DNA of 64,000 nucleotides from Gemmatimonadota bacterium (GTDB taxonomy: Bacteria; Gemmatimonadota; Gemmatimonadetes; Longimicrobiales; Gaopeijiaceae): the NCBI GenBank assembly GCA_026706635.1, contig JAPOYJ010000011.1:62001-126000 (forward strand). The letters are read 5' to 3'. A program made the translations under genes and the position numbers. The first letter of the stretch is position 1. The number at the start of each line of letters is the position of its first letter. The notes below the pieces were generated by a model, which saw only the letters and a program-made list of their open reading frames with translations, made no database searches and was not told the origin of the DNA. Positions 1-18,691 of this stretch are shown here, in pieces.

Positions 1-756
1 GGGTATTTTCTCGGCGTGCTGAAACGGTCGGTCTGGAATGCATGTCGCGGGTTGCGGTGGATTCTGACTGAGATTGAGATGCCCGATGGCCTTGCGGGGA
101 AGCTATATGGACAAGCGACGGGTTTGATCGACTGCGGGATTCCAGCGTACGGTGTCCTTCCGGGTATAAGCAATGTATGCGAGAATCTGCGCGAGGACGT
201 TGCGTTAGTTTTGTCAACCGGATTGGCATCCGAGAGTCGGAAGATGGGCGGGAGCGCGATGTGGTCATTACATTGCTGGATGCAAGTCGCTTCCGACCCG
301 GCGATGGCATTTGTGGCTCCCCCGGAGCACCTGGTAAGGGAGATCGGGGTTGCCGTCGCCACCAGGCGGCGATCGGTCTTGGGACAAGCACTCTGCGCGG
401 CGAAGTGGGTATTCGAAAGCGGTAGCAAGGACATGCGAGATGCGGTCCGCGATCTGGTGCTGAAGGGCTTGGGCTACCTAGCCGAAGGGTTGCGGTACGA
501 TCGCGAGGATCCACTCGATGAGAAACTTGATGTTCCGCTCGCACGATGGCGTAGCATCCAAGTGGCGCGCGCGATGGCTGGGCAGGGTCTGGGCGGGCAT
601 CCCGTGGTCAAGCGGTGGTTGCAGTTGGGAATGGATGACCCGCTACCGGAAGTACGACATGTCGCGAACAGGTGGCGGGAGGGTGAGGGGATGGTGGACG
701 CGGGCGAGAGCGATGGACGAGGCGAGTTCGCGGATGAGGGTGCGGCCGATGCCTAG
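1..756 (+). CDS. C-terminal part of a protein of unknown function, truncated by the window edge
   Basis: The reading frame is open from base 1, so this is the C-terminal ~250 residues of a longer protein. A GTG at 16 could serve as a start, but nothing upstream marks it as one. The sequence is helical, with alternating short hydrophobic and charged stretches; its end (PLPEVRHVANRW) looks like a HEAT/ARM-type helix, only a weak resemblance. I recognise no catalytic motif. The stop codon overlaps the ATG of the following AlbA_2 gene by 8 bases, so the two are translationally coupled and probably one operon. Given the BREX genes downstream, a defence role is likely but not shown. Confidence 0.55.
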   Translation, partial: GYFLGVLKRSVWNACRGLRWILTEIEMPDGLAGKLYGQATGLIDCGIPAYGVLPGISNVCENLREDVALVLSTGLASESRKMGGSAMWSLHCWMQVASDPAMAFVAPPEHLVREIGVAVATRRRSVLGQALCAAKWVFESGSKDMRDAVRDLVLKGLGYLAEGLRYDREDPLDEKLDVPLARWRSIQVARAMAGQGLGGHPVVKRWLQLGMDDPLPEVRHVANRWREGEGMVDAGESDGRGEFADEGAADA

Positions 757-2476
757 AACCCACACCGATGTTGAAGGACTTCTGGATCGGCTCGACGAGC
801 TTTCCGCCCACGACCTCGAGTCCCAAACCCTCGACTTCAAGGAATGGGATCTTCACAGCCTGAACCAGTCGACCCGAACCGTCGTGAGCTCCGCCGTCTG
901 CATGGCCAACGGCGGCGGGGGAACGGTGGTCTTCGGCGTTGCCGACAAGCTGGTGGGCCGCGAATGCGCGATCCTCGGCGTCCCGCCGGAAGTCTCGGTG
1001 AACCGGCTCCGGGCCGCCGTCTACGACTCGACCGACCCGAAGCTGACCCCCGTCTTCCAGGAACTGCACGTCCCCGAGGGCACCGGCCGGCTGATTCTCA
1101 TGCATGTCCACCCCGGAATGCCTCCCTACACGGACACTGCCGGCCGCGGCACGATTCGCATCGGAACGGACTGCAAGCCTCTGACGGGCACTCTGCGGAG
1201 AAGGCTTCTGGAGGAGACCGAGGATCATGACTTCTCGACGGGCACGGTGGACGCGCCGATTCGGCGGCTCATTTCGCCCGTGGCGATGGAGTCGCTGCGC
1301 GATGCGGCCACCGCAGAGCGCGCCCCGCGGGAACTGCTCCGGTTGGGCGACGAGGATCTCCTGCGGGCGATCGGCGTGATCCGGGACAGCGTCGCCACGC
1401 GCGCCATGGTGATCGTCGCGGGTTCGCCGCACGCCATCCGGGAGCACGTTCCGAACTACGTGTGGACTCACGCCCGGATGTCCTCCGAGACGGACTACTC
1501 CGACCGAGTCGACGGCACGGACGCCGTTACCGTGGCCCTCGGCAGGATCCTCGACCGAATCATGGCCGACAATCCCATCGAGACCGTGCGGAGAGAGCCG
1601 TACCACTTCGAATACCGGACCTATCCCGAGGTCGCTCTCCGGGAAGCGCTGCTCAACGCCCTCTGCCACGGTGACTTCCGGGTCGCCGGGCCACGGCTGG
1701 TCAAGCAGTACCCGGACCGCATCGAGATCTCTAATCCCGGGGGCCTTGTGGGGGATCTGACCCCGGAGAACATCCTCCATCATCCCCCGGCCGCGCGCAA
1801 CCGGTGCCTCGTGGACGCGCTCGGCAGGCTGCGCCTCATCAACCGGATGAACCTCGGAATGGAGAGGATCTACTCATCGCTTCTCATGGAGGGTAAGCCG
1901 CCACCCGAAATCGAGGACATGGGAGACGCGGTGAGGCTGACGTTCCGCGCCTCGAAGCTGTCCGCGGCGTTCCGGGGATTCGTTGGCGAACAGGCGAGGA
2001 AGGGGATCGCTCTGACCGCCGACCACATGCTCGTCCTGCGGCACCTGCTGCGCCGGCCGGCGATCAGACCGGCGACGGCGGCTCGTCTCTGCCAGCGGCG
2101 ACTGGGCGAGGCGCGGGACGCGCTGGTCGAGATGGAAGGCGCCTTCGGCCTGCTCGAACGCGGTGCCAACGGCCGCGAGGAGCACTGGACGCTGGTGCCG
2201 GAGGTCAGGGCCGCGCTCACCAGAGTGAGGGAGCCGGACGATCGAATGCGAAGCTGGCGTGAGATCAAGGACGAGGTGCTACGGGAGATGCGGGCCCGCG
2301 CGGTGCGAGGGGAGGAGCCGCTGGCCAACGCCGTCGTGAGGCGGATGACTCGTCTCGACCGCCAGCAGGTCAATCGCCTGATTCACGAACTTGTGGAAGA
2401 GGGCGGCGTCCGAATCGACGGCCATGGCCGCGGCGCGCGATACGTGTACGTGGGTTCGCCGGTGGGAGGGGAGTGA
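749..2476 (+). CDS. AlbA_2 / HATPase_c_4 putative regulator (Schlafen/RecG-C-like), first of three paralogues
   Basis: 575-residue protein. Residues ~25-150 form an AlbA_2 (Schlafen-type, formerly AAA_4) nucleic-acid-binding domain, with the hallmark TLDFKEWD and a glycine-rich GGGGTVVFGV strand. A HATPase_c_4 (RecG C-terminal-like) domain follows at ~285-420, with REALLNALCHGDF as the ATP-binding N box. The last ~150 residues contain two winged-helix-like stretches, the second around DRQQVNRLIHELVEEGGV. I place the start at 749 because it overlaps the upstream stop and the protein then begins just before the domain; a longer in-frame extension to 518 is out of frame with the preceding gene and lacks domain support. 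Such proteins are usually annotated as ATP-binding transcriptional regulators and recur as BREX accessories. Confidence 0.82.
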   Translation: MPRTHTDVEGLLDRLDELSAHDLESQTLDFKEWDLHSLNQSTRTVVSSAVCMANGGGGTVVFGVADKLVGRECAILGVPPEVSVNRLRAAVYDSTDPKLTPVFQELHVPEGTGRLILMHVHPGMPPYTDTAGRGTIRIGTDCKPLTGTLRRRLLEETEDHDFSTGTVDAPIRRLISPVAMESLRDAATAERAPRELLRLGDEDLLRAIGVIRDSVATRAMVIVAGSPHAIREHVPNYVWTHARMSSETDYSDRVDGTDAVTVALGRILDRIMADNPIETVRREPYHFEYRTYPEVALREALLNALCHGDFRVAGPRLVKQYPDRIEISNPGGLVGDLTPENILHHPPAARNRCLVDALGRLRLINRMNLGMERIYSSLLMEGKPPPEIEDMGDAVRLTFRASKLSAAFRGFVGEQARKGIALTADHMLVLRHLLRRPAIRPATAARLCQRRLGEARDALVEMEGAFGLLERGANGREEHWTLVPEVRAALTRVREPDDRMRSWREIKDEVLREMRARAVRGEEPLANAVVRRMTRLDRQQVNRLIHELVEEGGVRIDGHGRGARYVYVGSPVGGE

Positions 2477-2862
2477 CCGAAATGTATCCGCCATACATTT
2501 TCCGATACATTTCTCCGCGAAATGTATCAAGAAATGTCTTTCAGACACATTTCCGGGCGAAATGTATCGCATCTTCCGCTTTAGAAGCGCGGCCGGAATG
2601 CGATTCTCCGAGATTCCCAGATACATTTCTCCCCGCGAAATGCGAACGAAATGCGCGAATCGCCATTCGACTCGCATTTCTCCCGCGCTCCATTGCTGGG
2701 AATGGGTCTCCGCGTCCGTTCCTGTCGCATTTCCGCCTCCGGTCTCCGAGAAACGGGTCGAAGAGCGTCGTTCCGGTCGTCTTCCGACGCGTTCCCCGCA
2801 CTCCGGGCACGGATGGCGCACCGACAGCGCCCCCCAGTCCCCGCTGAAGGAGGATCCGAAGA
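2477..2862. promoter_or_regulatory. Gene-free spacer with a palindrome array (GAAATGTATC / GATACATTTC)
   Basis: This 386-base gap inside the operon holds no convincing gene. GAAATGTATC occurs at 2479, 2519 and 2559, and its complement GATACATTTC at 2504 and 2620: five exact 10-mers in 151 bases. They form dyads: 2480-2487 with 2493-2500 (5-base spacer), 2504-2513 with 2519-2528 (perfect, 5-base spacer), and an imperfect one at 2531-2553, with centres ~26 bases apart. Degenerate GAAATGCG/CGCATTTC copies continue to ~2690. It could be an operator array for a dimeric regulator, perhaps one of the flanking AlbA_2 proteins, or a set of RNA hairpins. Function is inferred only. Confidence 0.6.
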
Positions 2863-4044
2863 ATGGACCTGAACGAGTTTCGCGAGAGAATCCGAGCCGG
2901 CGAGAGCGAGCGGCTGGAGTTCAAGCGGGAGGCGCGCGACCTGCGGGCGGTTGGCCGGGCCGTCTGCGCCTTCGCCAACTCGTCCGGCGGCACGGTCGTC
3001 CTCGGCGTGGACGACCGGGGCGGAATCGTGGGCGTGGACGAGGATCTGGACGGGCTGCAGGAACGCCTGAGCAGCTTTCTCCACACCGGACTGAGTTCCC
3101 CGGTTTCGGCCAGATGCGGCTGTCTGGAGACTCCCGCCGGCTGGGTGCACTGGATCAGGGTCCCCCACCAGCAGCGGGGGTTCGAGCCCATGCGCCACAG
3201 GGGCCGCTACTGGGTGCGCTGCGGCCGGAGCAGCGTCGAGCCTTCGCCCTCCGGGCTGGAGGAGCTCCTCCATGTCTTCGGGTTCGTGATGACCGAGGAC
3301 CAGGTGATTCCGTCGGCGGAGGAGCATCACATCGACCTCGCCGTGTTCATTGCCCACCTCCGGGCCATGGGGTTCAAGCCCGACAAGGGGCCGCAGCCGT
3401 CCATGACCGACGACCTTCGCAATCGCGGCGTGACCTCGGAACTGGACGGAGTCATGCGTCCGACCCTCTACGGCCTGTTGGCGTTCGGCAAGCATCCGCA
3501 GCAATACCCTCAGATGGGGAACTTCGTCGTGCGTTGCGCCGCCTACCTCGGCGACCACCAGGGATCCGAGGTCATTTCGGCCAGCGAGAGCCGGGGACGC
3601 CTGGAGGAGCAGGTAAATCGCGCGCTGGAGTGGGTCCGATCCTTCGGCTGGCGCGAGGAATACCGGGGTCTCTACCGCCGCAACGTGCCGTTGGTCCCCG
3701 AGGACGCCCTCCGCGAGGCGCTGGTGAACGCGGTCGTGCACCGGGACTACTCGATCACCGGCTCGCCGGTATCGCTGGACGTGCTGCGAGACCGGGTGCT
3801 GGTGACCAGTCCGGGAGCTCTTCCGAATCACATGACCGTGGAGAGCGTTCGCGCGGGCGGTCGGCCCCGGTCCCGCAACGAGCTCATGGTCAACGCGATG
3901 GTCGTGGCCAGGTTGATGGAGAAGCGCGGAAGGGGGTGGCTGCTGATGAGTGAGGCGATGGCGGAGTTCGATCTGCCCGAGCCGGGGATCGAGAACGATC
4001 CCCCGGGACGCACCGTGCGGGTGACGCTGAGGCGCGTACCATGA
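2863..4044 (+). CDS. AlbA_2 / HATPase_c_4 putative regulator, second paralogue (short form)
   Basis: 393 residues. The AlbA_2 domain spans ~1-130 (LEFKREARDL, then SSGGTVVLGVDD) and the HATPase_c_4 domain ~230-390, with REALVNAVVHRDYS as the N box. It ends directly after the ATPase domain and lacks the winged-helix tail seen in its two neighbours, so it is a short form. A strong Shine-Dalgarno AAGGAGG (2847-2853) lies 9 bases before the ATG, fitting independent initiation after the palindrome-rich spacer. Its last codons overlap the next gene by 4 bases (ATGA), so those two are coupled. It probably works with the adjacent paralogues; the substrate or operator is unknown. Confidence 0.82.
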   Translation: MDLNEFRERIRAGESERLEFKREARDLRAVGRAVCAFANSSGGTVVLGVDDRGGIVGVDEDLDGLQERLSSFLHTGLSSPVSARCGCLETPAGWVHWIRVPHQQRGFEPMRHRGRYWVRCGRSSVEPSPSGLEELLHVFGFVMTEDQVIPSAEEHHIDLAVFIAHLRAMGFKPDKGPQPSMTDDLRNRGVTSELDGVMRPTLYGLLAFGKHPQQYPQMGNFVVRCAAYLGDHQGSEVISASESRGRLEEQVNRALEWVRSFGWREEYRGLYRRNVPLVPEDALREALVNAVVHRDYSITGSPVSLDVLRDRVLVTSPGALPNHMTVESVRAGGRPRSRNELMVNAMVVARLMEKRGRGWLLMSEAMAEFDLPEPGIENDPPGRTVRVTLRRVP

Positions 4045-5723
4045 CACCCCTCCTCTCTCCCGCCGAGCTCCAGACCATCCTGTCCCGCGGCGAAAGCCAG
4101 TTCGTCGAGTTCAAGTCCGCGTGGGACCGCACCACCGTACCGCGCAAACCCCTCGCGCGCCGCACCCTGCGCGACAAGATCGCCGACGCCGTCGCCGCCT
4201 TCGCGAACGCCGACGGTGGCCTTCTGCTGGTCGGAGTCGACGACGACGGGGCCGCCACCGGCCACGGCTATCCGGACCATGTCGTGGACGACCTCTTCGC
4301 GGTCCCCCGCCGCAGGCTGACCCCGGCCGTCGCTTGCCGCACCGAACGGATTGCCGTCGACTGCCACGAGGTCCTCGTGTTCCAGGTCCCCATCGCCCCC
4401 GAAGCCGTCATGATCGACGGCAACGGCTTCCCGTATCGGGTCGGCGCCCGGATCATCCGGGAGCCGCAGGAGATCATCAACCAGCGGAAGCAGGCGTATC
4501 GGCGCGTCGGATACGAGCCGCGTTTCCGGCCGGAGGCCAAGGTTGACGATCTGGACCTGGCGCTGGCCGAATCGTTTCTGAAGGACACGCCCGTCGGGGA
4601 CCGTCCCGTCATCGAGGCCCTCGACTACTACGGCCTCATCGAGATGGACGCCCGCGATTGGCGAGTGACCAACGCGGCCCTCCTGCTCTTCGCCCGCCGC
4701 CCGGCGCTTCGCTGGCATCCTCGTGCAGGGCTGCGGGTTTTCCGGGTGGCAGGAACGGAGATCAGGTACGGACGCCGCCGGAACGTGACGCAGATCGGGC
4801 GGGCCGACCCTCCGCTGGCCTTGGCCGTCCACGAGATAGTGGAGCTGGCGCGGCACCAGGTGCGCAGGTCCGAGAAACTGGTCGGTCTCCACTTCGAGGA
4901 CATCACCGAGTACCCCCACTTCGCGTGGCAGGAATCGTTGGTCAACGCCATTGCCCACCGCGACTACGAAGTGCAGGGCCGCGAAACCGAAATCTGGTTC
5001 TTCGAGGACCGGCTCGAAGTGTCCAGCCCGGGAGAGCTCCTTCCGCCCGTCACCGTGGACACGCTGCGAGAGGGCCACAGGGCTCATGTGACCCGCAATC
5101 CGATGCTGGTCCGGGTTCTCGCCGACACGGAGATCATGCGGGACGAGGGGGAGGGGATCGTGCGGGTGTTCCGGGAGATGGAGGACAGCTTCCTCGGCGA
5201 ACCGGAGTTGACCTCCGCGAACGGCCTGTTCACGATCACGCTTCTCAACGAGCCCGACTGGGAGGCGCACGGACCGGGGTGGAGGCACTTCGTCGACGGG
5301 CTTCGCGTCGCGGACGATCAGAAGAGGATGCTGCTCCTGCGGCCGTACGGGTTCACCCAGGCCGACTACGAACGGCTGAACACGGTGACGCCCGAGGAGG
5401 CGGCTCGGCGGATCGCGGATCTGGTAAGCGGAGAACTCGTGATCGGCCTTCCCGCTCCAGAGGATGTGGGGCCGACGTTCGTGGTGCGGCCGGACAAGGA
5501 GAAGATGGGCCTCTTCCTGAACGACCGGATCCTGAAGCTCCGGGAGCACTTCCAGAAGCAGCCCTGGCTCAAGAATGCCGACTATCGCGAGGTCTTTGAC
5601 GTTGACCGGCGAAAGGCGACCAGGGAGCTCCGCCAGCTCGCGGAGGTCTTCGGTCTGCTGCGGATGGAAGGGACCCGCCGGGGTGCCCACTACCGCCCAA
5701 CGTCCGCGCTCGGAGCGAGCTAA
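4041..5723 (+). CDS. AlbA_2 / HATPase_c_4 putative regulator, third paralogue
   Basis: 560 residues. The N-terminal AlbA_2 domain (~10-135) starts with QFVEFKSAWD and contains GGLLLVGVDDDG. The HATPase_c_4 domain (~265-400) carries WQESLVNAIAHRDYE and the G-box-like RDEGEGIVRVF. A winged-helix-like tail (~485-555) contains NADYREVFDVDRRKATREL. The start overlaps the previous stop by 4 bases. It diverges clearly in sequence from the two preceding paralogues, so the trio is not a recent duplication. It ends 264 bases before the pglZ start, in a gap rich in ATGACC half-sites. It is probably an accessory or regulator of the BREX locus; the family assignment is firm, the role is inference. Confidence 0.82.
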   Translation: MTPLLSPAELQTILSRGESQFVEFKSAWDRTTVPRKPLARRTLRDKIADAVAAFANADGGLLLVGVDDDGAATGHGYPDHVVDDLFAVPRRRLTPAVACRTERIAVDCHEVLVFQVPIAPEAVMIDGNGFPYRVGARIIREPQEIINQRKQAYRRVGYEPRFRPEAKVDDLDLALAESFLKDTPVGDRPVIEALDYYGLIEMDARDWRVTNAALLLFARRPALRWHPRAGLRVFRVAGTEIRYGRRRNVTQIGRADPPLALAVHEIVELARHQVRRSEKLVGLHFEDITEYPHFAWQESLVNAIAHRDYEVQGRETEIWFFEDRLEVSSPGELLPPVTVDTLREGHRAHVTRNPMLVRVLADTEIMRDEGEGIVRVFREMEDSFLGEPELTSANGLFTITLLNEPDWEAHGPGWRHFVDGLRVADDQKRMLLLRPYGFTQADYERLNTVTPEEAARRIADLVSGELVIGLPAPEDVGPTFVVRPDKEKMGLFLNDRILKLREHFQKQPWLKNADYREVFDVDRRKATRELRQLAEVFGLLRMEGTRRGAHYRPTSALGAS

Positions 5724-5966
5724 TGAGCGTGCAGGGATCAGGTATGACCGTCGGTCATGTAAATCGTAACGTGTTGCAGTACAGTCTTTTACCGAAGATA
5801 TGAACTTCAGCATCGTGAATATGACCACTGGCGTGGCCGCGTTTTCGGTTGCCATCCGGTGGAATCAGCGTCGCGCGGCTCCACCGGCTATGACCACCAC
5901 TCACCGAGTTATGACCACCCGCCACGATCACCACAACCTGTTGTCGACAAATCTCTTACGAGACAT
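5724..5966. promoter_or_regulatory. Spacer before pglZ with repeated ATGACC half-sites
   Basis: No gene is supported here. ATGACC occurs at 5744, 5821, 5890 and 5911, and its complement GGTCAT at 5753. The first pair forms the perfect dyad ATGACCGTCGGTCAT (5744-5758). Three of the copies continue as ATGACCAC. The composition is more AT-rich than the flanks. Direct plus inverted copies ahead of pglZ suggest an operator region for a promoter serving pglZ and brxL. Confidence 0.4.
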
Positions 5967-5987
5967 ATGCCCCCGAGGTCCGCACTT

Positions 5988-8333
5988 ATGACGGAACACG
6001 GCACCCAGGGCTCCCCCCCCACCCCCCTCGACCACCTCGCCCGCTCCCTGCGCGCCCGCGCCTCGGTCCCGAGCGGCCAGGCCGCCCCTGCCGCCATCCT
6101 GTGGACCGACCCCGGAGCCGAATGGCGCGGACTCCTCCCTGAAGCGCTCATCCGCATCCCCGAGCTGCTCGTCCTCGGCGACTACAGTCTGGACGACCGC
6201 ACCGGCCCTGCCATCTGGCTTCGCTGCGTGGTCGACGGCACGATCCCAGCTCCCGGGCTCCCCGCCGACGCCATCCCGATCCTCTACCTCCCCGGAGTCG
6301 AACGTGGCGAGCTGCGCGCCGGCGAGGACTGCCACGACCGGCTCAAGCCACTCGTCGAGCTCATGTATCGCGGCGTCCTCTGGCACAACCCCAAGGGCCG
6401 CGACTGGACGGTCACTGCGTTCCTGACCTCATCCGGCGGCCCGGATCTAGACATCGCCCCCGACCGGGGAACGGCCGCTGCGCTGCGCGCTGCGCTTGAT
6501 CGCGTCGCAACGACTCCTGTCGCACAGCTGCGCGGCCGCCGCCTCGATGCCGCCGACTTCAACCGCATGGCTGGCGTCGATGTGTTCCGCGATGTCCTGC
6601 GCTGGATGGGCGACCCCGGGCGCATGCGATCCGGGCCGGGCGAGAACCGCTGGAACGCCTTCCGCGCGGAGTGCCGGAGCGATCTCCGGTTCGACCCCGA
6701 GACGGAGGCGGACGTGTCGGCCGGAGCCATGCTCGGCGAGGCGTCGGGCCCCTGGGCCAAGGTGTGGGCCCGGTTCGCCGAAGCGCCGGATGCCTTTCCG
6801 GGAGTCCCCGAGTTGCTCGCGCGAAGCCGGCCCGCCGGTGAGCTTCCCCTCGACCGTGATCGCTGGCCCGACCTCAACGACGAGGACGAGGAGGTGGTGC
6901 GGAGCGCGCTGGCCGGTCTTCTGGGCATGTCCCACGCCGATGCGTCGCGGGCCGTCGCACGGCTGGAGGAAGACCACGGCCACCGTCGGCGGTCGGTCTG
7001 GGCTCGCCTGGGACGGTCTCCGCTCGCCGAAGTGCTTAAGCCGCTGGCCCGGCTGGCCGGGATCGCCGACAAGGCGATCGGTGGGGCAAGCCCGGACGAT
7101 GCGGCCGAAGTCTATGCCGAGCGCGGATGGCTCGCCGACGCGGGTGCCCGAGAGGCTCTGTCCCTGGCGCCCGCCGAGCACGAGGAGACGGTCGCCGCCG
7201 CCGTGCGGCACCTGCTCGAGCCCTGGCTGGACGACTCCGCCCGCGCCTTCCAGTCCGCGGTGGATCGCCAGCCGCTCCCGTCGGCCGGTGACCAGTCGGC
7301 GGTCACGGCCAGCGAAGACGAATGCATCCTTTTCGTTGACGGCCTCCGCTACGAGCTTGGACAATCACTGGCCGAACGGCTGGAGGCGCGCGGATGCCGT
7401 ACGGAGACCGGCCGCCGTTGGGCCGCGATCCCTACGGTAACCGGCACCGCCAAGCCCGCCGTAACGCCGGTAGCGCGCGATGTCGCCGGCGACCGGCTCG
7501 GTGCCGACTTCCGTCCCGCCATGCGGGGCTCCGGCCGACCCGCCCTGGCCGGGGACCTTCGCAAGGCGATGGAAGGGCGGGGCTATCAGATTCTCGGTTC
7601 GGGCACCCTGGATATTCCGCTGAACGCCGGTGCGCGCGGCTGGCTGGAGACCGGTGAGATCGACAAGCACGGTCACCACCACCGTGCGGCGTCGTTTGCC
7701 CGCCAGGTCGAAGAGGAGCTGGACCGGCTGGCCGGCCGGATCACCGGGCTGCTGAAGGCCGGATGGAGTTCGGTCCGCGTGGTGACCGACCACGGGTGGC
7801 TGCTGCTTCCCGGCGGCCTGCCTCTGGTCGCCCTGCCCAAACACCTCACCGAGTCCAAGTGGGCGCGGTGCGCCGTCGTCTCCGCTGGCTCCACACCGGA
7901 CGCGCCTCTTCATCCCTGGCACTGGAACCCGCGGGAGTGGTTCGCCTCTCCGCCCGGGATCGCCTGCTTCAGCCGGACGCCGGAGTACGCGCACGGCGGC
8001 CTCAGCATCCAGGAATGCCTGATCCCGGACATTCGTGTCGAAGGGACGGCTGGCGGCGGCGCGACCGCGAAGATCCTATCCGTCTCCTGGGTCCGGTTCC
8101 GTTGCAAGGTCGTCGTCGAGGCCCGGGGCGGCCCCGTCACGGCCGATCTGCGTCTCGGCGGTCCGGCGGGCGATTCGGTTGCGTCCTCGCCCAAAGCCAT
8201 CGACGACGACGGACTTGCCAGCCTGGTCCTTGCTGGCGACGAACATGAGGGCGCGGACCTAGTCGTCGTGGTTCTGGGTGCCGACGGCCGCGTCCTCGCC
8301 CAACAACCTACCCGCACCGGAGAGAACACATGA
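5988..8333 (+). CDS. pglZ: BREX system alkaline-phosphatase-like protein PglZ (type B)
   Basis: About 781 residues. The N-terminal region matches the PglZ type B pattern: a conserved ILW-D-W block, LGDYSLDDRTGPAIWLRCV, then ILYLPGV. The phosphatase-like core holds ILFVDGLRYELG (~450) and VVTDHGWLLLPGG (~600), the metal-site-like aspartates of the PglZ fold. PglZ is a core component of every BREX system, acting with PglX and BrxC in host methylation and phage exclusion. I chose the ATG at 5988; the in-frame ATG at 5967 is a reasonable alternative, and the extension to 5859 is a translated low-complexity leader. brxL follows with a 4-base overlap, the typical BREX type 1 order. Confidence 0.9.
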   Translation: MTEHGTQGSPPTPLDHLARSLRARASVPSGQAAPAAILWTDPGAEWRGLLPEALIRIPELLVLGDYSLDDRTGPAIWLRCVVDGTIPAPGLPADAIPILYLPGVERGELRAGEDCHDRLKPLVELMYRGVLWHNPKGRDWTVTAFLTSSGGPDLDIAPDRGTAAALRAALDRVATTPVAQLRGRRLDAADFNRMAGVDVFRDVLRWMGDPGRMRSGPGENRWNAFRAECRSDLRFDPETEADVSAGAMLGEASGPWAKVWARFAEAPDAFPGVPELLARSRPAGELPLDRDRWPDLNDEDEEVVRSALAGLLGMSHADASRAVARLEEDHGHRRRSVWARLGRSPLAEVLKPLARLAGIADKAIGGASPDDAAEVYAERGWLADAGAREALSLAPAEHEETVAAAVRHLLEPWLDDSARAFQSAVDRQPLPSAGDQSAVTASEDECILFVDGLRYELGQSLAERLEARGCRTETGRRWAAIPTVTGTAKPAVTPVARDVAGDRLGADFRPAMRGSGRPALAGDLRKAMEGRGYQILGSGTLDIPLNAGARGWLETGEIDKHGHHHRAASFARQVEEELDRLAGRITGLLKAGWSSVRVVTDHGWLLLPGGLPLVALPKHLTESKWARCAVVSAGSTPDAPLHPWHWNPREWFASPPGIACFSRTPEYAHGGLSIQECLIPDIRVEGTAGGGATAKILSVSWVRFRCKVVVEARGGPVTADLRLGGPAGDSVASSPKAIDDDGLASLVLAGDEHEGADLVVVVLGADGRVLAQQPTRTGENT

Positions 8334-10393
8334 GCGCACCCGAGTTCCAGATGGACGCCCTGGACCGCACCGCCAACGAGGCCTTCCCCGGCTACCTGGT
8401 GCGGAAGGACCTGGTGCGGCGCTACGCGCGCCAGTACCCCGTCCCCACCTACGTCGTCGAGTTCCTGCTGGGGCGGTACTGCGCAAGCGTCGACCAGGAG
8501 GAGATCGACGAAGGCCTGGAGATCGTGAAGAAGCAGCTCGAAGGGCGCACGGTCCGCGCCGCCGAGCGGGAGATCTTCAAGATGAGGGCGCGCGAGGAGG
8601 GCTCGGTCCGCCTCATCGACATCCTGCGTGCCCGCCTGGATGCGAAGAACGACTGCTACCTCGCCGAACTCCCCAGCCTCAGCCTCCGGGACATCCGCAT
8701 CGAGAGCGGGTTCGTCACCGACCACCAGCGGATGCTCGCCGACGGGCTCTACGCCGAGGTGACACTGGAGTACGACCCGGTGATCGCCCAGGAAAAACAG
8801 GGACGCCCGTTCAGCGTCGCGGCGATGCGCCCCATCCAGATGTCGAGCCCGTCGGTCCTCAGGGTGCTGGCCAAGGGACGGCGCCGCTTCGACATTGCGG
8901 GTTGGACCGCCTTCCTCCTCCGTTCGACCGGCCTGGAGCCATCCGCGTTGGATGAACGGGCCAAGCGCGTCGCACTCCTGCGCCTGATCCCCTTCGTCGA
9001 GCGCAACTACAACCTCGTCGAACTCGGTCCCCGCGGGACGGGCAAGAGCCACGTCTACCAGCAGCTCTCCCCGCACTCCCACCTGCTCTCGGGGGGCAAG
9101 GCCACCGTCGCGAAGATGTTCGTCAACATGGCCAACGGGCAGCGCGGCCTGGTCTGCCAGTACGACGTGGTGTGCTTCGACGAGGTCGCCGGCATCTCGT
9201 TCGACCAGAAGGACGGCGTCAACATCATGAAGGGCTACATGGCGTCGGGCGAGTTCAGCCGGGGCAAGGAGAGCATCCGCGCGGAGGGGTCGCTGGTCTT
9301 GGTCGGCAACTTCGACGTTTCGGTGGAGCAGCAGCAGCGCATCGGCCACCTGCTGAGCCCGTTGCCGAAGCAGATGCGGGACGACACGGCCTTCCACGAC
9401 CGGATCCACGGCTACGCCCCCGGCTGGGACTTCCCCAAGCTGAACCCCAACGAGCACCTCACCGACCACTTCGGCCTCGTCAACGACTTCCTGAGCGCGT
9501 GCTGGACCAAGCTGCGGGACACGACGCGTCTGCCGCTCCTGCAGAATCGGGTGTTCTGGGGCGGCGCGCTCTCCGGACGGGACATCGAGGCGGTCCACAA
9601 GACGGTCTCCGGGCTCATCAAGCTGCTGTTCCCGGATGGCGGGATCGAGGTGGACGACGAGGATCTGGAGTGGATGGTGCGACTGGCTCTGGAGTCGCGG
9701 CGGCGCGTGAAGGAGCAGCAGAAGCGGTGTCTCAAGGCCGAGTTCCGGAGCACCCACTTCTCGTACACGCTCGGTGTGGACGGCACGGAGCAGTTCGTGG
9801 CGACGCCCGAGCTTCGCAGCGACGAGGCGATCGACAGCGACCCGCTGCCTCCCGGGCAGGTGTGGGCGATCGGGCCGGGTGTCGAGAGTACCGGGCCGGG
9901 GCTCTACCGGATCGAGGTGGTGGTGGGACCTGGGGCGGGGGGAGCGAAGATCCTGAACCAGCCGGTGCCGCCGGCGTTTCGGGAAAGTGTCCGGGTGGGG
10001 GAGCAGAATCTGTACACGGGAGGGAAGGCGTTGGTGGGGGACCGCGACGCGCGGGCGCACCAGTACACGGTTCAGATGCAGCCGCGGGACAACGACAAAT
10101 CGGGGACTGGGCTGGGGCTGCCGGTCTTGGCGGCGATGGTGGGAGGGTTGCTGGACCGGAAAACGCGCGGGGCCACGATCATCGTGGGGCCGCTGAACCT
10201 CGGGGGATCGCTGGAACAGATCGCGGACCCTGTGGCGATGGCGGAGCTCGCGGTGGACAAGCAGGCGACCGTTCTGCTGATGCCGGTGGGCGCGCGGAGG
10301 GAGCTGATGAAACTCGACGACGATGTGTGGACGAAGGTGAATATCGAGTTCTACCGGGACCCGCAGGACGGGGTGTTCAAGGTGTTGGAATGA
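8330..10393 (+). CDS. brxL: BREX system Lon-like AAA+ protein BrxL
   Basis: 687 residues, the normal BrxL length. An N-terminal domain (~1-200) precedes an AAA+ module with Walker A GPRGTGKS (~233) and Walker B VVCFDEVAG (~280). A C-terminal Lon-protease-like domain (~540-687) contains NDKSGTGLGLPVLAAM at the place of the Lon catalytic serine region. BrxL is a hexameric DNA-binding AAA+ factor required for exclusion in type 1 BREX and is the usual last gene of the operon. It starts on the pglZ stop (ATGA overlap) with GGAGAGA upstream. A new promoter begins ~20 bases after its stop, so the BREX operon probably ends here. Confidence 0.92.
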   Translation: MSAPEFQMDALDRTANEAFPGYLVRKDLVRRYARQYPVPTYVVEFLLGRYCASVDQEEIDEGLEIVKKQLEGRTVRAAEREIFKMRAREEGSVRLIDILRARLDAKNDCYLAELPSLSLRDIRIESGFVTDHQRMLADGLYAEVTLEYDPVIAQEKQGRPFSVAAMRPIQMSSPSVLRVLAKGRRRFDIAGWTAFLLRSTGLEPSALDERAKRVALLRLIPFVERNYNLVELGPRGTGKSHVYQQLSPHSHLLSGGKATVAKMFVNMANGQRGLVCQYDVVCFDEVAGISFDQKDGVNIMKGYMASGEFSRGKESIRAEGSLVLVGNFDVSVEQQQRIGHLLSPLPKQMRDDTAFHDRIHGYAPGWDFPKLNPNEHLTDHFGLVNDFLSACWTKLRDTTRLPLLQNRVFWGGALSGRDIEAVHKTVSGLIKLLFPDGGIEVDDEDLEWMVRLALESRRRVKEQQKRCLKAEFRSTHFSYTLGVDGTEQFVATPELRSDEAIDSDPLPPGQVWAIGPGVESTGPGLYRIEVVVGPGAGGAKILNQPVPPAFRESVRVGEQNLYTGGKALVGDRDARAHQYTVQMQPRDNDKSGTGLGLPVLAAMVGGLLDRKTRGATIIVGPLNLGGSLEQIADPVAMAELAVDKQATVLLMPVGARRELMKLDDDVWTKVNIEFYRDPQDGVFKVLE

Positions 10394-10410
10394 GGGGGGC
10401 AACGGAGGTC

Positions 10411-10438
10411 TTGACCTCTAGCGGATTCGGTGTATATT
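10411..10438 (+). promoter_or_regulatory. Sigma-70-like promoter before the 97-residue orphan gene
   Basis: TTGACC (10411-10416) and TATATT (10433-10438) are separated by 16 bases, a near-consensus housekeeping promoter and the clearest I found. It lies 78 bases upstream of the ATG at 10517, just after the brxL stop. A short inverted repeat (ACCGGTG...CACCGG) sits in the leader. Confidence 0.55.
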
Positions 10439-10516
10439 CGGCAACCGGTGCCCACCGGCTTCGAGATCGCGGAGATCGAGGACACCGACAACAGCAACGC
10501 GCTGAGGAGGCATGAA

Positions 10517-10810
10517 ATGGCATCAAAGCACGACCAGACGGCACGACGACTCGCAAGGCGAGAAGGCGTGGACTACAACCAGGGCCAAGGCGCGGACATC
10601 ATTAGCAACCGTCGCGCGATCGAAGTGGAAACCGCTTCTACAGCTCGTGATGGGCTGCGACAACTTCAGGGCCACAGGAAGCCGGTGTACATCGCCGGGG
10701 CGGACGAAGAGGCCACCAAGGTCGCTCTGGAGGCTGCCGAAGGGACTACGGTGGGCGTGATGGACTCGGACGGGAATATCGTGAAGTCATCCAGTCGAAA
10801 ACGGAGCTAG
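10517..10810 (+). CDS. Small basic orphan protein of unknown function
   Basis: 97 residues. The start at 10517 follows GAGGAGG (10504-10510) at a good distance; an overlapping ATG at 10512 is in another frame. The N-terminus is strongly basic (KHDQTARRLARREG), followed by a hydrophilic core with GADII, an EVETAS segment and KPVYIAGADEEAT. It ends VGVMDSDGNIVKSSSRKRS. The NRRAIEVET stretch faintly recalls nuclease-fold proteins that use a D/E-x-E motif, but the protein is too short to call. It has its own promoter. It lies between brxL and a second orphan, so it belongs to the accessory island. I do not recognise a characterised family. Confidence 0.65.
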   Translation: MASKHDQTARRLARREGVDYNQGQGADIISNRRAIEVETASTARDGLRQLQGHRKPVYIAGADEEATKVALEAAEGTTVGVMDSDGNIVKSSSRKRS

Positions 10811-10835
10811 CAGATGCCTGAGAGGATAGCCTAAA

Positions 10836-11111
10836 ATGGGCGGGAGTCGGCTCGACGACGATGAATTCGATCGGCGGCTAAGCAAAGACGTCAAGGACAA
10901 CTGGGCGGGAATCCTCGTCGACCGGATCATCGAATCGGTTGAGGTCCTGCAAAGCGAGTTTCGTCGCATGGCCCAAAAGCAGCCCGAGATCAGGGCGCGC
11001 TCGACCAATGTCGAGCCCCTTGTCAAGCGGATTCTGCAGGATAGTAGAGACCTGAAAGAGATCTTGGTAGAGCACGGCCAAATACCTGTGTTGAGCGGTC
11101 GGTCTAGGTGA
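10836..11111 (+). CDS. Small helical hypothetical protein
   Basis: 91 residues, rich in charged residues and predicted largely helical (FRRMAQKQPEIRARS, then VKRILQDSRDLKEILVEHG). GAGGAT stands ~10 bases ahead of the ATG. It follows the previous small gene by 25 bases and probably shares its promoter. Its 3' end overlaps by 8 bases the convergent stub of the ATPase partner gene on the other strand. No family recognised; it could be a small partner of the preceding orphan. Confidence 0.55.
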   Translation: MGGSRLDDDEFDRRLSKDVKDNWAGILVDRIIESVEVLQSEFRRMAQKQPEIRARSTNVEPLVKRILQDSRDLKEILVEHGQIPVLSGRSR

Positions 11112-11235
11112 TATCGCACCGCAGCTCTCCGACGCCGAGAGCAGCAGTGCGCCGAAACAACTTGGTCAGGGCCTCTTCGATGTCCCTGTCCGCAACGAGC
11201 GCGACAAGCTTGTCAGGTCCAGCTTCGTGCCTCAC
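11104..11235 (-). pseudogene. N-terminal stub of an ATPase-partner gene (DUF4276-like), truncated
   Basis: A GTG overlapping the stop of the upstream ATPase (GTGA) opens a 43-residue frame: a start segment, then DKLVALVADRDIEEALTKLF and RRTAALGV. This resembles the first strand and helix of the DUF4276-type partners encoded after AAA_21 ATPases in predicted defence modules; those are usually ~200 residues. Here the frame stops after 43 codons, at the 3' end of the convergent small gene, so the rest appears deleted. The stub may still be translated. The family call rests on a short stretch plus context. Confidence 0.45.
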
Positions 11236-12497
11236 CCAACCACGCCCTTGGCGAAGAGCACGTCCATATTGATCGATCCATGCCAATCCGCGAGCATCGG
11301 ATGCTCGTTTCCCCGAATTATGTCCGTCGCGCCCTCCAGATCCTTCTCGAAGCACAGTACCTCGCGTGGATCCACCAACGCGAGGAGCGTCTGCGAATGC
11401 GTGGCCACGAGCACCTGGGCATCATACGCCGACGACAGCGAATCGCGGATTCCGTCCACCGCCAGCGGGTGGACCCCGTTCTCCGGCTCTTCGAGCAGAT
11501 AGACTTCACGGTTGTCGGGCAGATACGCGAGTACGGTCAACGCCAGGAGCCGCATGGTCCCGTCCGACGCCATCCAGGACGGCACGTCCACACCGGTATC
11601 GTACCGCAGTCGCAAGTACGCATGCCGGTCCTCCGGCCGGTCGATTACGTCAATGCCCCGAAGATCCGCGAGTACAGTCCGGACATGGCCGAGCCATTCC
11701 TCGAAGTCGGCTGGGTGCTCATCCTGGAGCCGCTTGATGACCCATGGCAGGTTGGAACCGTCGATTGCGAATCCGTTTCTACCGTATTCAGGGGGACTCG
11801 CTCCGCGCATCTTGACGCTGTCAAGGAAGACCGGCTTCACACCGTTCTCCAGCTTTCGCTTCACGAGAGTGGCCATCGGGAACTTCTCGGGGGACTCGGG
11901 CAGGTTACCTAACGTGGAGCGGTGGGGGCCGAAGGCGATGGTTGTCACCCATCCCTTCCCCGCTTTGCTCTCGGTCTCGACGCTGAACGCGTCCGTTCCC
12001 TTGGCCGATTTACTGAGTACAGACCTGTTTCCGTGCTTCCCCCCGCCCACGAGTATCGTGGAGGGAGGCGCTGGCGGAAAGGGGAACCTCCGCTGGACCA
12101 TTCGCCGGCGCTTGCGCGCGGGCATCAGCAGCCCTCGCTCCGACGCGATACGCATTCCCCGTTCATCTTCGCTGATCCTTACCTCATAGCGAAAGACTCG
12201 AAAGCCCTTCTCGGCTGGCAGTCGCTTCCGCAGCTCCTCCGGCACCTCCAACTCGATCGCCAACTCGAAGCGCAGGTCCTGCTCGGGCCGCCCCCAGACC
12301 AGATCCTGGAAATTCGCGGTACGGCTCCCGACTGCCCTCTCCAGCCCGTCCCGAACCAAGTCACCTAGGAAGGCGATGGCGTCGAAAAGGGTGCTCTTAC
12401 CGCTGGCTTTGGGGCCGATCAACACGTGGAATCTGTCGAGCGAGACATCTACATACCGCAGACAACGGTAGTTGAGTGCCTGGATCCGACAGATCAT
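11232..12497 (-). CDS. AAA_21 / RecF-SMC-like ATPase, likely defence-related
   Basis: 421 residues from the ATG at 12497, which has AGAGGAT just upstream; an extension to 12542 is possible. The N-terminus (ALNYRCLRYVDVSLDRFHVLIGPKASGKST) carries Walker A at ~30-37. An ABC-like signature region contains MASDGTMRLLALTVLAYL, Walker B is YLLEEPENGVHP (~333) and the H-loop VATHS (~366). This is the head-only RecF/OLD-type ATPase used by many anti-phage systems together with a toprim or nuclease partner. The next gene, in GTGA coupling, is such a partner but truncated. Whether the ATPase acts alone or the system is dead is open. Confidence 0.8.
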   Translation of the reverse strand: MICRIQALNYRCLRYVDVSLDRFHVLIGPKASGKSTLFDAIAFLGDLVRDGLERAVGSRTANFQDLVWGRPEQDLRFELAIELEVPEELRKRLPAEKGFRVFRYEVRISEDERGMRIASERGLLMPARKRRRMVQRRFPFPPAPPSTILVGGGKHGNRSVLSKSAKGTDAFSVETESKAGKGWVTTIAFGPHRSTLGNLPESPEKFPMATLVKRKLENGVKPVFLDSVKMRGASPPEYGRNGFAIDGSNLPWVIKRLQDEHPADFEEWLGHVRTVLADLRGIDVIDRPEDRHAYLRLRYDTGVDVPSWMASDGTMRLLALTVLAYLPDNREVYLLEEPENGVHPLAVDGIRDSLSSAYDAQVLVATHSQTLLALVDPREVLCFEKDLEGATDIIRGNEHPMLADWHGSINMDVLFAKGVVG

Positions 12498-12649
12498 GAG
12501 GATCCTCTCGCCTTGGGACGCGGTTGCGATGCGGGGACTCAAGCATTCCCCATCCCTCCCCGACTGTCAACCGCGACCGCCGAGACGCTGTAGCGATGAG
12601 CGACCGACCCGCGCTTGACAGGTAAGATCGACATAGCCATTATAGCCAG

Positions 12650-12949
12650 ATGAAAAAGGCTAGCGTCAGCGAGGCGAAGAACGGGCTCAGCGGACTGCTG
12701 AGCGAGGTTCGGCGTGGGGAGTCGGTGCTGATCACGCACCGCGGGCGGCCCGTTGCGCGGATCGAACCGTGCCGGGTTCCCGGCCCGGACGCCGAGGACG
12801 CCATTTCCGAGCTCCTGCAGCGGGGCGTCGCGGCCCCGCCTCGCGCGCCACTTGATGTCGAGCGCTTCCTGGGTGTCCCCGCCGCCCGGCTGACCGGGGG
12901 AGTCAGCGCTAGCGAGATCGTCGTGACCGAGCGCAGCGGGCACCGTTGA
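12650..12949 (+). CDS. Phd/YefM-type antitoxin
   Basis: 99 residues. The N-terminus is the classic Phd fold: MKKASVSEAKNGLSGLL, then RRGESVLITHRGRPVARIEP, which binds operator DNA and keeps the toxin in check. Upstream is a short AT-rich stretch with ATAGCCATTATAGCC, a plausible autoregulated promoter/operator. The stop overlaps the toxin start by 4 bases (TTGA), the standard arrangement for co-translated toxin-antitoxin genes. Confidence 0.85.
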   Translation: MKKASVSEAKNGLSGLLSEVRRGESVLITHRGRPVARIEPCRVPGPDAEDAISELLQRGVAAPPRAPLDVERFLGVPAARLTGGVSASEIVVTERSGHR

Positions 12950-13365
12950 AGTACTGGGACTCGTCGGCTCTGGTGGCCCTCGTCGTGGACGAGCCGCGAA
13001 GCGCCGAGCGCCGGGCGAGGATCCGCCGGGATCCGGTGATTGTGACGTGGTGGGGCAGCCGGATCGAATGCGCATCGGCACTGAACCGCCTGGAACGTGA
13101 TCATCGCTTCGAGGATGACGGGCTCGACCGTTCGATGGGCCAGCTCGGGATGCTGGCTGCGAGTTGGCTCGAGATCGAGCCCCTGGAGCAGGTGCGCAGG
13201 CGCGCGATCAGGCTGCTTCGGCTTCATCCGCTCCGCGCGGCGGACGCGTTGCAGCTGGCGGCGGCGCTCACCGCTTCGGACGAGGACCCCCAGCGGCTGG
13301 ATCTGGTCAGCAGCAATGATCGTCTTTCGGCCGCGGCGCGCCGCGAGGGGTTCAGGGTTCTGTGA
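12946..13365 (+). CDS. PIN-domain toxin, VapC-like
   Basis: 139 residues from a TTG that overlaps the antitoxin stop. Four acidic PIN positions are visible: YWDSSALVAL (first Asp), IECASALNRLE (Glu), RAADALQLAAAL (Asp) and SSNDRLSAAA (Asp). PIN toxins are Mg-dependent RNases that cut tRNA or rRNA when the antitoxin is degraded. All expected acidic residues are present, so it looks intact. Its place between the BREX locus and the ArdC fusion gene fits a defence or mobile island. Confidence 0.85.
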   Translation: MKYWDSSALVALVVDEPRSAERRARIRRDPVIVTWWGSRIECASALNRLERDHRFEDDGLDRSMGQLGMLAASWLEIEPLEQVRRRAIRLLRLHPLRAADALQLAAALTASDEDPQRLDLVSSNDRLSAAARREGFRVL

Positions 13366-13478
13366 GTTGCGCGGCGACCGGTCGGGTGCGGCGGTGATGG
13401 TGGTTGGGGGCGGAGGTAGCCGCTGACGCGACGACATGTATCGGCGATGAAGAGGAGGAGACTTCGGGTGGTGAGGCT

Positions 13479-14747
13479 GTGAGCGCCCGACCGGTAAACC
13501 CGGACTTCTTCAAGGACCTCACCGCCCGGATCCTTGCGGCCCTCGAGGAAGGCGTGGTCCCCTGGCGACGGCGGTGGCGTTCGTTGACGCCGACCCGGTA
13601 CGTCGGACTCCCCTTCACGGGAACCAACAATCTCGTGCTCTCCCTCGCGGCTGACGTCAAGGGCCACCGGAATCCGTTCTGGCTGACGAAGGCCCAGGGA
13701 CGCCGTTGCGGCGCAAAGGTCCTGGACGGCGAGAAAGGCACGCGGGTGCTGCGGCCGCTCCCGTTCCCGGTCCCGGATCGTGCCTTCCCGCTCATGGAAT
13801 CCTACGAGGTGTTCAACGGCGAGCAGTTCGACCGGCTGCCGCCCAGGTTCCGGGTCGATATAAAGAGTCCCGCTCCCGGTCCGCGAGGCAGGATCGACAT
13901 CGCCGAAGACTTCTTCGCGCCGGTCGGCGCGGAAATCGTGCCGGGCGGCGACCGCGCGGTATACAATCGCAGCAGGGGCGTGCGGGAGCTTGCGGAGCGG
14001 CCTCTGGACGATCGCGCCTGGATCGTGGTCTACCTCGACATCGTCGACATCGGGCCGCATCCGCTGGTCGGGGCTGTCGGAGTGGACACCGGGGGAACCA
14101 AGCGCGTGCTGGGGCTGCGCCACGCCGGAGGCGACGCCGCCGACCGGGCGGCGGCCGCCGAGGAGCTGCTGCGGGACGTGGTGAACCGGGGCGTCCGCCC
14201 GGACCGGCGACGCCTCGTAGTGACCGACGGATCCACGCAGCTGAGGGACGCGGCGGTCGCGGTGTTCGGCCCGGACACGTACGTGCAGGCCTGCCGGCTA
14301 CACCGCGAGCGCGAGGTCCTGTCGCAGGTGCGCGAGAAGGAGGATCGCGACAAGGCCAGGAAGGCGCTCCGCGAGGCATGGGTGGGGGGGGCCGGGGTTG
14401 GACCGCGGCGCCTGAAGGAACTGGCGGAACGGATTGAGCGAGCCGGATGGGAGGAAGCCACGACCCGGCTCCGTGCCGGATCCGGCGACCTCTTCACCGT
14501 GGACCGATTTGGACTCGACTCCGGGCTGGCCGGGAGCCTCGTCACGACGGGCGTGATCGACAGCGCGAGCTCGGGACTGCGGCGGCAGATCTGCGGCGTG
14601 CCGAGCTGGGGCGACGGCGAGGGGGCGCTCGCGTGGGCGGCCGCGTCCTTCCTCGAGACCGAGCGCGGGTTCCTGAAGGTCCGAGGCCACCGGCGCCTTC
14701 AGCATCTCAAGGACCACCTGGACCAGATCGAGATGCCGTTCGGCTAG
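13479..14747 (+). CDS. Fusion of ArdC antirestriction N-domain with a Mutator/IS256 transposase core
   Basis: About 422 residues from GTG 13479; the frame stays open to a TTG at 13404. Residues ~7-170 match the ArdC N-terminal ssDNA-binding region: DFFKDLTARILAALEEGVVPW, NPFWLTKAQGRR, GEKGTRVLRP, YEVFNGEQFDRLP and the later AEDFFAPVGAEI. Where ArdC continues into its HExxH metalloprotease domain, the sequence switches at ~177 to a Mutator-family DDE core: VYLDIVDIG (first Asp), LVVTDGSTQLRDA (second Asp, ~249), CRLHRERE, and GVIDSAS where the family has (N)PIES, so the third acid is Asp (~361). It ends FLETERGFLKVRGHRRL. The transposase's own N-terminal DNA-binding region is missing. No terminal repeats seen. 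Domain matches are from memory. Confidence 0.72.
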   Translation: MSARPVNPDFFKDLTARILAALEEGVVPWRRRWRSLTPTRYVGLPFTGTNNLVLSLAADVKGHRNPFWLTKAQGRRCGAKVLDGEKGTRVLRPLPFPVPDRAFPLMESYEVFNGEQFDRLPPRFRVDIKSPAPGPRGRIDIAEDFFAPVGAEIVPGGDRAVYNRSRGVRELAERPLDDRAWIVVYLDIVDIGPHPLVGAVGVDTGGTKRVLGLRHAGGDAADRAAAAEELLRDVVNRGVRPDRRRLVVTDGSTQLRDAAVAVFGPDTYVQACRLHREREVLSQVREKEDRDKARKALREAWVGGAGVGPRRLKELAERIERAGWEEATTRLRAGSGDLFTVDRFGLDSGLAGSLVTTGVIDSASSGLRRQICGVPSWGDGEGALAWAAASFLETERGFLKVRGHRRLQHLKDHLDQIEMPFG

Positions 14748-16689: not shown

Positions 16690-16813
16690 TCCGGAAGCGG
16701 CGTTCGGCAAATTACCTTCAACCGCCTTGCGGGCGTCGGTGCCTTGGTCGCCGGTCGCTCGCGGCCTCCGTCTCCGACCCGTTCGCCCCTCCCATGAGCC
16801 ACGGCACTCGCGC

Positions 16814-18691
16814 ATGAGCCACGCCGCCGCTGAGCAGCACGATGTAGTCATCGTCGGCGGAGGAGGCGCCGGACTCCGCGCGGCGATCGCGATCGCGGAG
16901 GAGAACCCGGCCTTCTCGGTGGCCTGCGTCTCCAAGGTCTACCCGATGCGCAGCCACACCGTGACCGCGGAGGGGGGCGCGGCCGGCGTCATCAAGCCCA
17001 ACGACAGCCTCGAAGACCACATCTACGACACGATCAGCGGCGCCGACTGGCTCGCCGACCAGGACGCGGTCGAGTACTTCGTCCACCGCGCACCCGAGGA
17101 GATGATCCAGCTGGAGCACTGGGGCTGCCCCTGGAGCCGCATGCCCGACGGGAGCGTTGCTGTGCGTCCCTTCGGCGGCATGAAGATCGAGCGCACCTGG
17201 TTCGCGGCCGACAAGACCGGCTTCCACATGCTGCACTCGCTCTTCCAGACCACCCTGAAGTACGGCAACATCGTCCGCTACGACGAACACTTCGCGACGA
17301 AGCTGCTCCTCGACGACGCGGGGCGCTGCCGCGGGTGCGCCGCCATCGAGCTCAGGACGGGCGCGGTGAGGGCCGTGCTTGGCAAGTCGGTCATCATCTG
17401 CACCGGCGGCGCGGGCAAGGCCTTCCCCTTCACGACCAACGGCGCCATCAAGACCGGCGACGGGATGGCGATGGCCTACCGGGCGGGCGTGGCGCTCAAG
17501 GACATGGAGTTCATCCAGTACCATCCGACTGGCCTTCCCGGGACCGGAATCCTCATTACGGAAGCCTCGCGTGGCGAGGGCGGAATCCTCGTCAACAAGG
17601 ACGGTCGCCGCTACCTGGAGGACTACGATCTGGGCGAGGCGCTGGATGTGAGCGATCCGCGGCATCCGCAGAAGCGCGCGATGGAGCTGGGTCCGCGCGA
17701 CAAGCTGAGCCAGTGCTTCGTCAAGGAGATGTGGGCTGGCCGCACGATCAGGACCAAGGACGGCGATGCGGTCCACCTCGATCTGCGCCACCTCGGGGAA
17801 GCCAAGATCGACAGGAAGATCCCGTTCGTGCGCGAGCTGGCCAGGAACTACGCGGGCATCGACCCGGTGCACCAGCCCATTCCGGTGCGCCCGGTCGTGC
17901 ACTACGTAATGGGCGGAATCGACGTGAACGGCGAGTCGGCCACGGACATTGCCGGGCTCTACGCGGCGGGCGAATGCGCGTGCGTTTCGATCAACGGGGC
18001 GAACCGCCTAGGGTCGAATTCGCTCACCGAGCTCCTGGTCTTCGGGGCCCAGGCGGGGAGGAACGCGGCTCGTTTTGCCATGGATAATCCAGAGCTGGAG
18101 GTAGGCGGGCTTGAATCGCAGGCCAGGGACGAGGGCGAGCGGATCCGGCGAGCGTACTTCAGCGCCAACGCCAGGAGCGCGGGATCTGCGGGCGGAGGCG
18201 GCGCGGGCGAGCGAATTGCGGTGCTCAGGAACGAGCTTCACGAAGCGATGGAGGAGGGTGCGGGCATCTACCGGGATCGGGAGTCGCTCGAGAAGACGTG
18301 CGACAAGATCGCCGAGCTCAGGGAGCGCTACGCCAACGTCACCCTGGACGACCACACGAACGGCTTCAACACCGAGCTCACCGCCGCGCTGGAGCTCTCG
18401 TCGCTCCTCGACGTAGCCGAGACAATCGCTCACTCGGGCCGCGAGCGGACGGAATCGCGCGGATCGCACCAGCGCCTCGACCACCCGGAGCGCAACGACG
18501 ACGACTTCCTCGCCCATTCGCTGGCGTTTCGTGCCGAGGACGGCCGCACGCCCAGGATCGAGTACCGGCCCGTGACGATTACCCGGTGGCCGCCGGGGGC
18601 GCGCACCTACGGCGCGGACTCGGGGCTGAAGCGCGAAGCGGAGGGAAGCGGCGCGGGCGGCCCGTCGGCCGCAGACGGCAACAATGAGTAG
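16814..18691 (+). CDS. frdA: Fumarate reductase / succinate dehydrogenase flavoprotein subunit
   Basis: 625 residues. FAD-binding [15 protein letters not shown] at the N-terminus, the FAD-linking histidine motif [13 protein letters not shown], the substrate-site region [16 protein letters not shown], and [10 protein letters not shown] followed by [19 protein letters not shown]. It interconverts succinate and fumarate at the membrane. The partner FrdB matches the E. coli fumarate-reductase type, so I name the operon frd; in an aerobe it may run as succinate dehydrogenase. ATG 16814 is used; an 87-base extension lacks homology. First gene of a four-gene operon. Confidence 0.9.

Follow-up and report, generated by a model that had tools for sequence, protein, structure and literature searches.

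Fusion of an antirestriction domain to a transposase core

How does a bacterial gene come to carry the N-terminal domain of the antirestriction protein ArdC and the catalytic core of an IS256/Mutator transposase in a single reading frame, and is its product kept by the host? We addressed this question with one such gene located in a 64,000-nucleotide stretch of a Gemmatimonadota genome (this whole stretch is termed the window). The open frame runs unbroken on the forward strand from a first TTG at 13404 to a stop at 14747. However, sequence alignment shows that homology to related genes starts at a GTG at 13479, and because conservation begins there, the gene probably spans 13479-14747 and encodes a protein of 422 amino acids. 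Counting from TTG 13404, Pfam assigns residues 35-116 to ArdcN (PF08401, E 1.9e-14) and residues 194-395 to Transposase_mut (PF00872, E 2.5e-11, profile positions 149-348 of 379), with both matches above the curated cut-offs. Relative to the GTG start, the ArdC N-terminal domain, which is of the ssDNA-binding type, covers residues 10-91 (13506-13751, forward strand) and is followed by an IS256/Mutator catalytic domain that lacks the dimerisation, NDB and HTH domains (13980-14744, forward strand). The NCBIfam model transpos_IS256 also matches the window protein (E 1.3e-24), with a score of 86.9 bits that is under its 150-bit cut-off and an alignment that begins only at profile position 109 of 338. 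Thus, the proposal of a sequence-only reading that this is a genuine fusion, in which the transposase is missing its own N-terminal DNA-binding part, is borne out by matches of both halves within one frame. Neither a frameshift nor a contig end occurs at the joint in the orthologues described below, and the start of transposase similarity at about 13980 is close to the joint at about 14,005 placed by that reading.

The fusion gene is single-copy in its own genome, where the other matches are to a stand-alone IS256 transposase (contig C17), a partial copy of this transposase (C84) and an ordinary ArdC (C9) that is a distinct relative with 36% identity. AlphaFold predictions made from a four-row alignment gave mean pLDDT values of 38.3 for the window protein and 36.8 for the full-length orthologue from genome G020, which are too poor for use.

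The window copy has lost the ArdC metallopeptidase

Orthologues with 78-80% identity to the window fusion are present in three Gemmatimonadota genomes of the same genus (G003, G014 and G020; public contigs JAJEBR010000047.1, JAPPGI010000052.1 and JAPPNM010000177.1). These genomes are publicly named as Gemmatimonadota metagenome bins, and our guess from their isolate codes is that they come from sponge samples. The orthologues are about 545-555 amino acids long and consist of the ArdC N-domain, an intact ArdC metallopeptidase and the IS256 catalytic domain. In the two orthologues that were scanned, Pfam detects MPTase-PolyVal (PF18818, E 3e-41 and 1.7e-43) with a HEAIH motif, as well as ArdcN (PF08401, E 1.4e-18 and 1.5e-18). 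Nucleotide alignment of the window copy with all three orthologues reveals two in-frame deletions, for which protein alignment gives lengths of 24 nt and 345 nt. The shorter one lies just downstream of the ArdC N-domain match at about 13785, while the longer one has left a scar at about 13968-13980 (forward strand) and takes out the HExxH zincin metallopeptidase (PF18818) that is present in the orthologues. As judged from these alignments, the window copy is a three-part protein after secondary loss of its metallopeptidase. The sequence-only reading took the transposase core to replace exactly the metalloprotease half of ArdC, an idea that is not supported because the relatives contain full-length ArdC together with the transposase core, so the protease was not replaced but was lost later.

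One concern is that the fusion or its missing metallopeptidase could be a misassembly, given that the source assembly is a draft of 86 contigs and that the 345-nt deletion rests on one assembly. We regard this as very improbable given that three other genomes also carry the fusion and a fourth has a decayed form of it, that the deletion preserves the reading frame with little microhomology at its ends, and that a search of the window's own genome found no orphan metallopeptidase piece of the fusion gene. A separate matter is a +1 frameshift seen early in the ArdC N-domain of the G014 orthologue by nucleotide alignment, which may be real or may be an assembly error.

The transposase half is a domain-clean catalytic core

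A profile built from the four genus cores gave ISCth4 (PDB 6XG8) as its sole meaningful match, beginning at ISCth4 residue 160. In ISCth4, residues 1-165 form the dimerisation, NDB and HTH domains, with the catalytic domain starting at residue 165 (PMC7780238). The transposase cut is therefore domain-clean, and in the orthologues the ArdC metallopeptidase sits where the IS256 dimerisation, DNA-binding and HTH domains would be. Alignment to ISCth4 identifies putative catalytic residues D187 (14037-14039), D250 (14226-14228) and D361 (14559-14561), all on the forward strand, which correspond to D175, D241 and E348 of ISCth4 (residues per PMC7780238), as well as a C272xxH275 motif (14292-14303, forward strand) that corresponds to ISCth4 C262/H265. 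None of these five residues varies among the four genus copies.

The third acid is an Asp and not a Glu, which we considered as the mark of a dead enzyme. We did not adopt this reading because the nearest stand-alone insertion sequence proteins (those of G042, G035, G246 and G000:C17) have the Asp as well. An IS256-like subclade in Gemmatimonadota (L002, L008, L009 and L115) carries Asp where the third catalytic Glu would be (TTNxID) and includes copies that resemble intact insertion sequences. The fusion core is 42-45% identical to the nearest stand-alone copies, G000:C17 and G042:C23, and differs from the insertion sequence proteins by a 3-aa insertion and by a change of the TTN beside the third acid to TTG in all four copies.

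The intact putative catalytic residues would be in keeping with an IS256-like element that can still move and for which ArdC serves as the DNA-binding part. So would the observation that local homology between G020 and the other copies is limited to the fusion gene itself, with different immediate flanks. Nevertheless, we consider continued mobility highly unlikely. The copies share a position beside brxL, each genome has a single copy, and, in agreement with the sequence-only reading, no terminal inverted repeats were found bracketing the gene in any of the four genomes; candidate 39-nt inverted-repeat ends are recognizable at the stand-alone insertion sequence in G042. Furthermore, the inverted repeats of ISCth4 are recognised by its N-terminal domains (PMC7780238). 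Since the fusion has neither these domains nor, as far as the search shows, inverted repeats, IS256-type transposition is not expected of it.

The fusion is rare and most simply has a single origin

Among 154 genomes of the order, the fusion is present only in the window genome, G003, G014 and G020, which corresponds to 4 of the 23 genomes of the genus with one copy in each. A class-wide search (394 genomes) added one further fusion that is broken, located at 9007-10804 of L029 (G091:C27) in a genome from another family. This copy has the same joint as the genus copies and shows decay in the form of stops in its N-part, replacement of the first and second acids, and an insertion. In a tree of ArdC halves the fusions, including that of G091, form one clade (support 99/95), and in a tree of transposase halves the fused cores form one clade together with a lone core, G014:C49 (96/96). 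The simplest reading of both half-trees is a single fusion event, with the exact placement of G091 and G014:C49 being unsure because of their long branches. The lone core in G014 (L031:2404-3177) is an IS256 catalytic domain without an HTH that is 46-49% identical to the fusion core and in which neither the second acid nor the histidine of CxxH is retained. We also evaluated it as a second fusion and rejected this as no ArdC was found nearby.

No mobile carrier of the fusion was found. Coverage of the query reaches 80% in none of 3001 matching plasmid records and in none of 56 phage records, with the listed matches being to the ArdC half. The fusion was likewise not found among IMG/VR viral contigs, where three matches involve ArdC only, and the core alone had no match to viral contigs. 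The distribution given here applies to the order and the class, as the scan of public contigs at large covered two short peptide patterns.

Linkage to a BREX locus is one inherited arrangement

The fusion gene was described by the sequence-only reading as lying next to a BREX locus, and this linkage is indeed conserved in four genomes, which represent four species of the genus. In the window, the order of genes is pglZ (5859-8333, forward strand, PADLOC E 5.9e-256), brxL (8330-10393, forward strand, PADLOC E 1.5e-275), an AAA_21 ATPase gene (11232-12542, reverse strand, best PADLOC match HEC-01A, E 1.8e-42), a Phd/YefM antitoxin gene (12650-12949, forward strand), a PIN-domain toxin gene immediately upstream of the fusion (12946-13365, forward strand) and then the fusion. 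Neighbourhood genes were called with a home-made ORF caller that missed or misplaced some genes. Located 5' of pglZ are three successive AlbA_2/HATPase_c_4 genes (518-5723), which have PADLOC matches to parts of pAgo models.

From brxL onward, G003 and G014 have the same gene order as the window, and in each of the four genus copies the fusion follows brxL at a distance of 1-3 kb on the downstream side. G020 has neither the AAA gene nor the toxin-antitoxin pair, and its fusion begins 1.1 kb past brxL; a fragment of brxL (aa 388-440) is also present in this genome directly upstream of the fusion (L074:8945-9103). A brxL gene of this type occurs in 6 of the 23 genus genomes, with two of these six having no fusion and a more distant brxL (83-88%). 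BREX loci without the fusion thus occur in the genus, and they occur in the family as well. In G091, the broken fusion is on C27 while its brxL genes are on C28 and C45. The BREX linkage of the four copies is one inherited arrangement and does not constitute four independent associations. Neither the window nor the G020 fusion protein matches any BREX protein family in PADLOC (0 families).

In a comparison of the window with G014 (L076), the flank containing BREX and the toxin-antitoxin genes (window 4387-13393) is 91-93% identical, with much of the BREX flank at 92-93%, whereas the core gene sdhA (16727-18691) is about 82% identical and the fusion 81-85%. Identity falls off abruptly where the fusion gene begins (13393-13479). 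Because identity of the flank exceeds that of both sdhA and the fusion, the BREX part has probably been exchanged between species, while the fusion appears from these identities to have diverged about as much as a core gene. On the right side, just past the stop codon of the fusion, the window has no sequence in common with the three relatives. G003 and G014 share their right flank (L075 and L076 downstream of 10762) save for an insertion of about 7 kb directly after the fusion in G014, and the right flanks of the window and G020 differ from that of G003 and G014.

Selection acts on the transposase core

Pairwise dN/dS values for the core are 0.14-0.28 by YN00 and 0.29-0.45 by NG86, which are rough values since YN00 and NG86 give differing results in this GC-rich genome. 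When compared with neutral simulations that use the observed substitutions, amino-acid conservation of the core is above the neutral expectation in all six pairs (z 2.6-4.3). The ArdC N-domain gives z values of 1.5-3.2 in pairs that involve the window copy and 0.0-1.8 among the other copies, with the ArdC half of the G003-G014 pair at z 0.0. For the window and G020 copies, 3.1 stop codons are expected under neutrality and the probability of observing none is 0.046. On the window branch, using codons where the other copies agree, pN/pS is 0.21 for the core and 0.43 for the ArdC N-domain. These substitution patterns indicate that the core is under purifying selection, with constraint on the ArdC N-domain being weaker and less clear.

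These values bear on whether the gene is instead an eroding relic, in which an ArdC gene of a mobile element was joined to an IS256 remnant and the resulting chimera drifts toward loss, with the window copy being carried by a selected BREX locus. We give this explanation serious weight, though short of an even chance. Erosion would account for the metallopeptidase deletion in the window copy, the frameshift in G014, the broken copy in G091, the lone G014:C49 core with its lost catalytic residues and no ArdC, the moderate NG86 values, the weak constraint on the ArdC N-domain, and the presence of the fusion in just 4 of 23 genus genomes. Against erosion, the core is constrained in every pair and on the window branch, the frame of the window copy survives two indels, and the putative D/D/D and CxxH residues are invariant in all four BREX-linked copies. 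The suggestion by the sequence-only reading that this is a domesticated gene is therefore only partly upheld. Purifying selection on the core and retention of its motifs speak for domestication, which the signs of erosion leave plausible but not proven.

A working model for the fusion protein

On balance we lean toward a domesticated DNA-processing protein that is kept by the host or by its BREX island. A complete ArdC, composed of an ssDNA-binding N-domain and a zincin metallopeptidase, has been joined in frame to an IS256 catalytic domain, most simply in a single event, and the window copy later lost the metallopeptidase by in-frame deletion. In our model, the fusion would no longer be self-mobile and would be retained by the host or by the island. 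The ArdC N-domain may tether the protein to (single-stranded) DNA, and an RNase H-like D/D/D core may cut or occupy the tethered DNA, the presumed target being DNA that enters the cell or is processed near BREX. The N-domain of R388 ArdC binds ssDNA non-specifically and the R388 protease is dispensable for antirestriction (PMC7213743), and the protease may be dispensable here too. It is reasonable to suppose that ArdC supplies DNA binding to the fusion. In its most likely form, the model has a protein of the host or its BREX island that is tethered to DNA and acts either as a nuclease or by occluding DNA. Weak constraint on the ArdC half in some pairs, the frameshift in G014, decay of the G091 copy, the presence of TTG for TTN and the inheritance of the BREX linkage as one arrangement all count against a functional reading. 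A more specific version, in which the fusion is a defence effector beside BREX whose ArdC N-domain recognises single-stranded plasmid or phage DNA that the IS256 core then cleaves, seems to us unlikely.

If the defence effector version were true, an invader's shield would have been turned into a targeting domain. More generally, a functional fusion would be a transposase catalytic domain that has its DNA-binding module swapped for an ssDNA-binding antirestriction domain beside a phage-defence locus, and its naturally occurring forms, some with the protease and one without, could be compared. If the gene is a relic, it would be a record of how such chimeras arise and erode.

Comparison with known systems

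The closest counterpart of the N-terminal part is ArdC of plasmids R388/pSa (PDB 6SNA and 6I89). The G003 orthologue matches residues 9-289 of 6SNA (E 1.7e-52) and has both the HExxH motif and the glutamate helix, whereas the window copy keeps the N-domain and lacks the metallopeptidase. ArdC in turn does not have the C-terminal IS256 catalytic domain of about 260 amino acids that is present in all genus copies. The genomic setting also differs, as the fusion is found on chromosomal-type contigs beside BREX and not on plasmid records. A similar plan is exhibited by polyvalent proteins (Iyer et al. 2017, PMC5512222), which have an N-terminal ArdC N-domain that is frequently accompanied by a metallopeptidase and other domains, and from which the fusion differs by its added IS256 catalytic core. 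The words transposase and integrase are absent from the main text of that catalogue (PMC5512222). With IS256 transposases such as ISCth4 (PDB 6XG8/6XGW/6XGX), the fusion shares the CxxH in the insertion domain, its putative RNase H-like core has acids that align with theirs, and it differs from them in having no dimerisation, NDB or HTH domains and no inverted repeats, and in its TTG and 3-aa insertion. As for BREX systems (PglZ/BrxL), the fusion is located near brxL in four genomes, and it falls outside the PADLOC models. The ArdC N-domain is already known as the header of multidomain conflict proteins, and we found no description in the open-access literature of its joining to a DDE transposase core. 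The fusion does not fit the description of a standard ArdC or of a complete IS256 transposase and is not among the known components of BREX, and the joining of an ArdC N-domain to an IS256 core is a new domain architecture.
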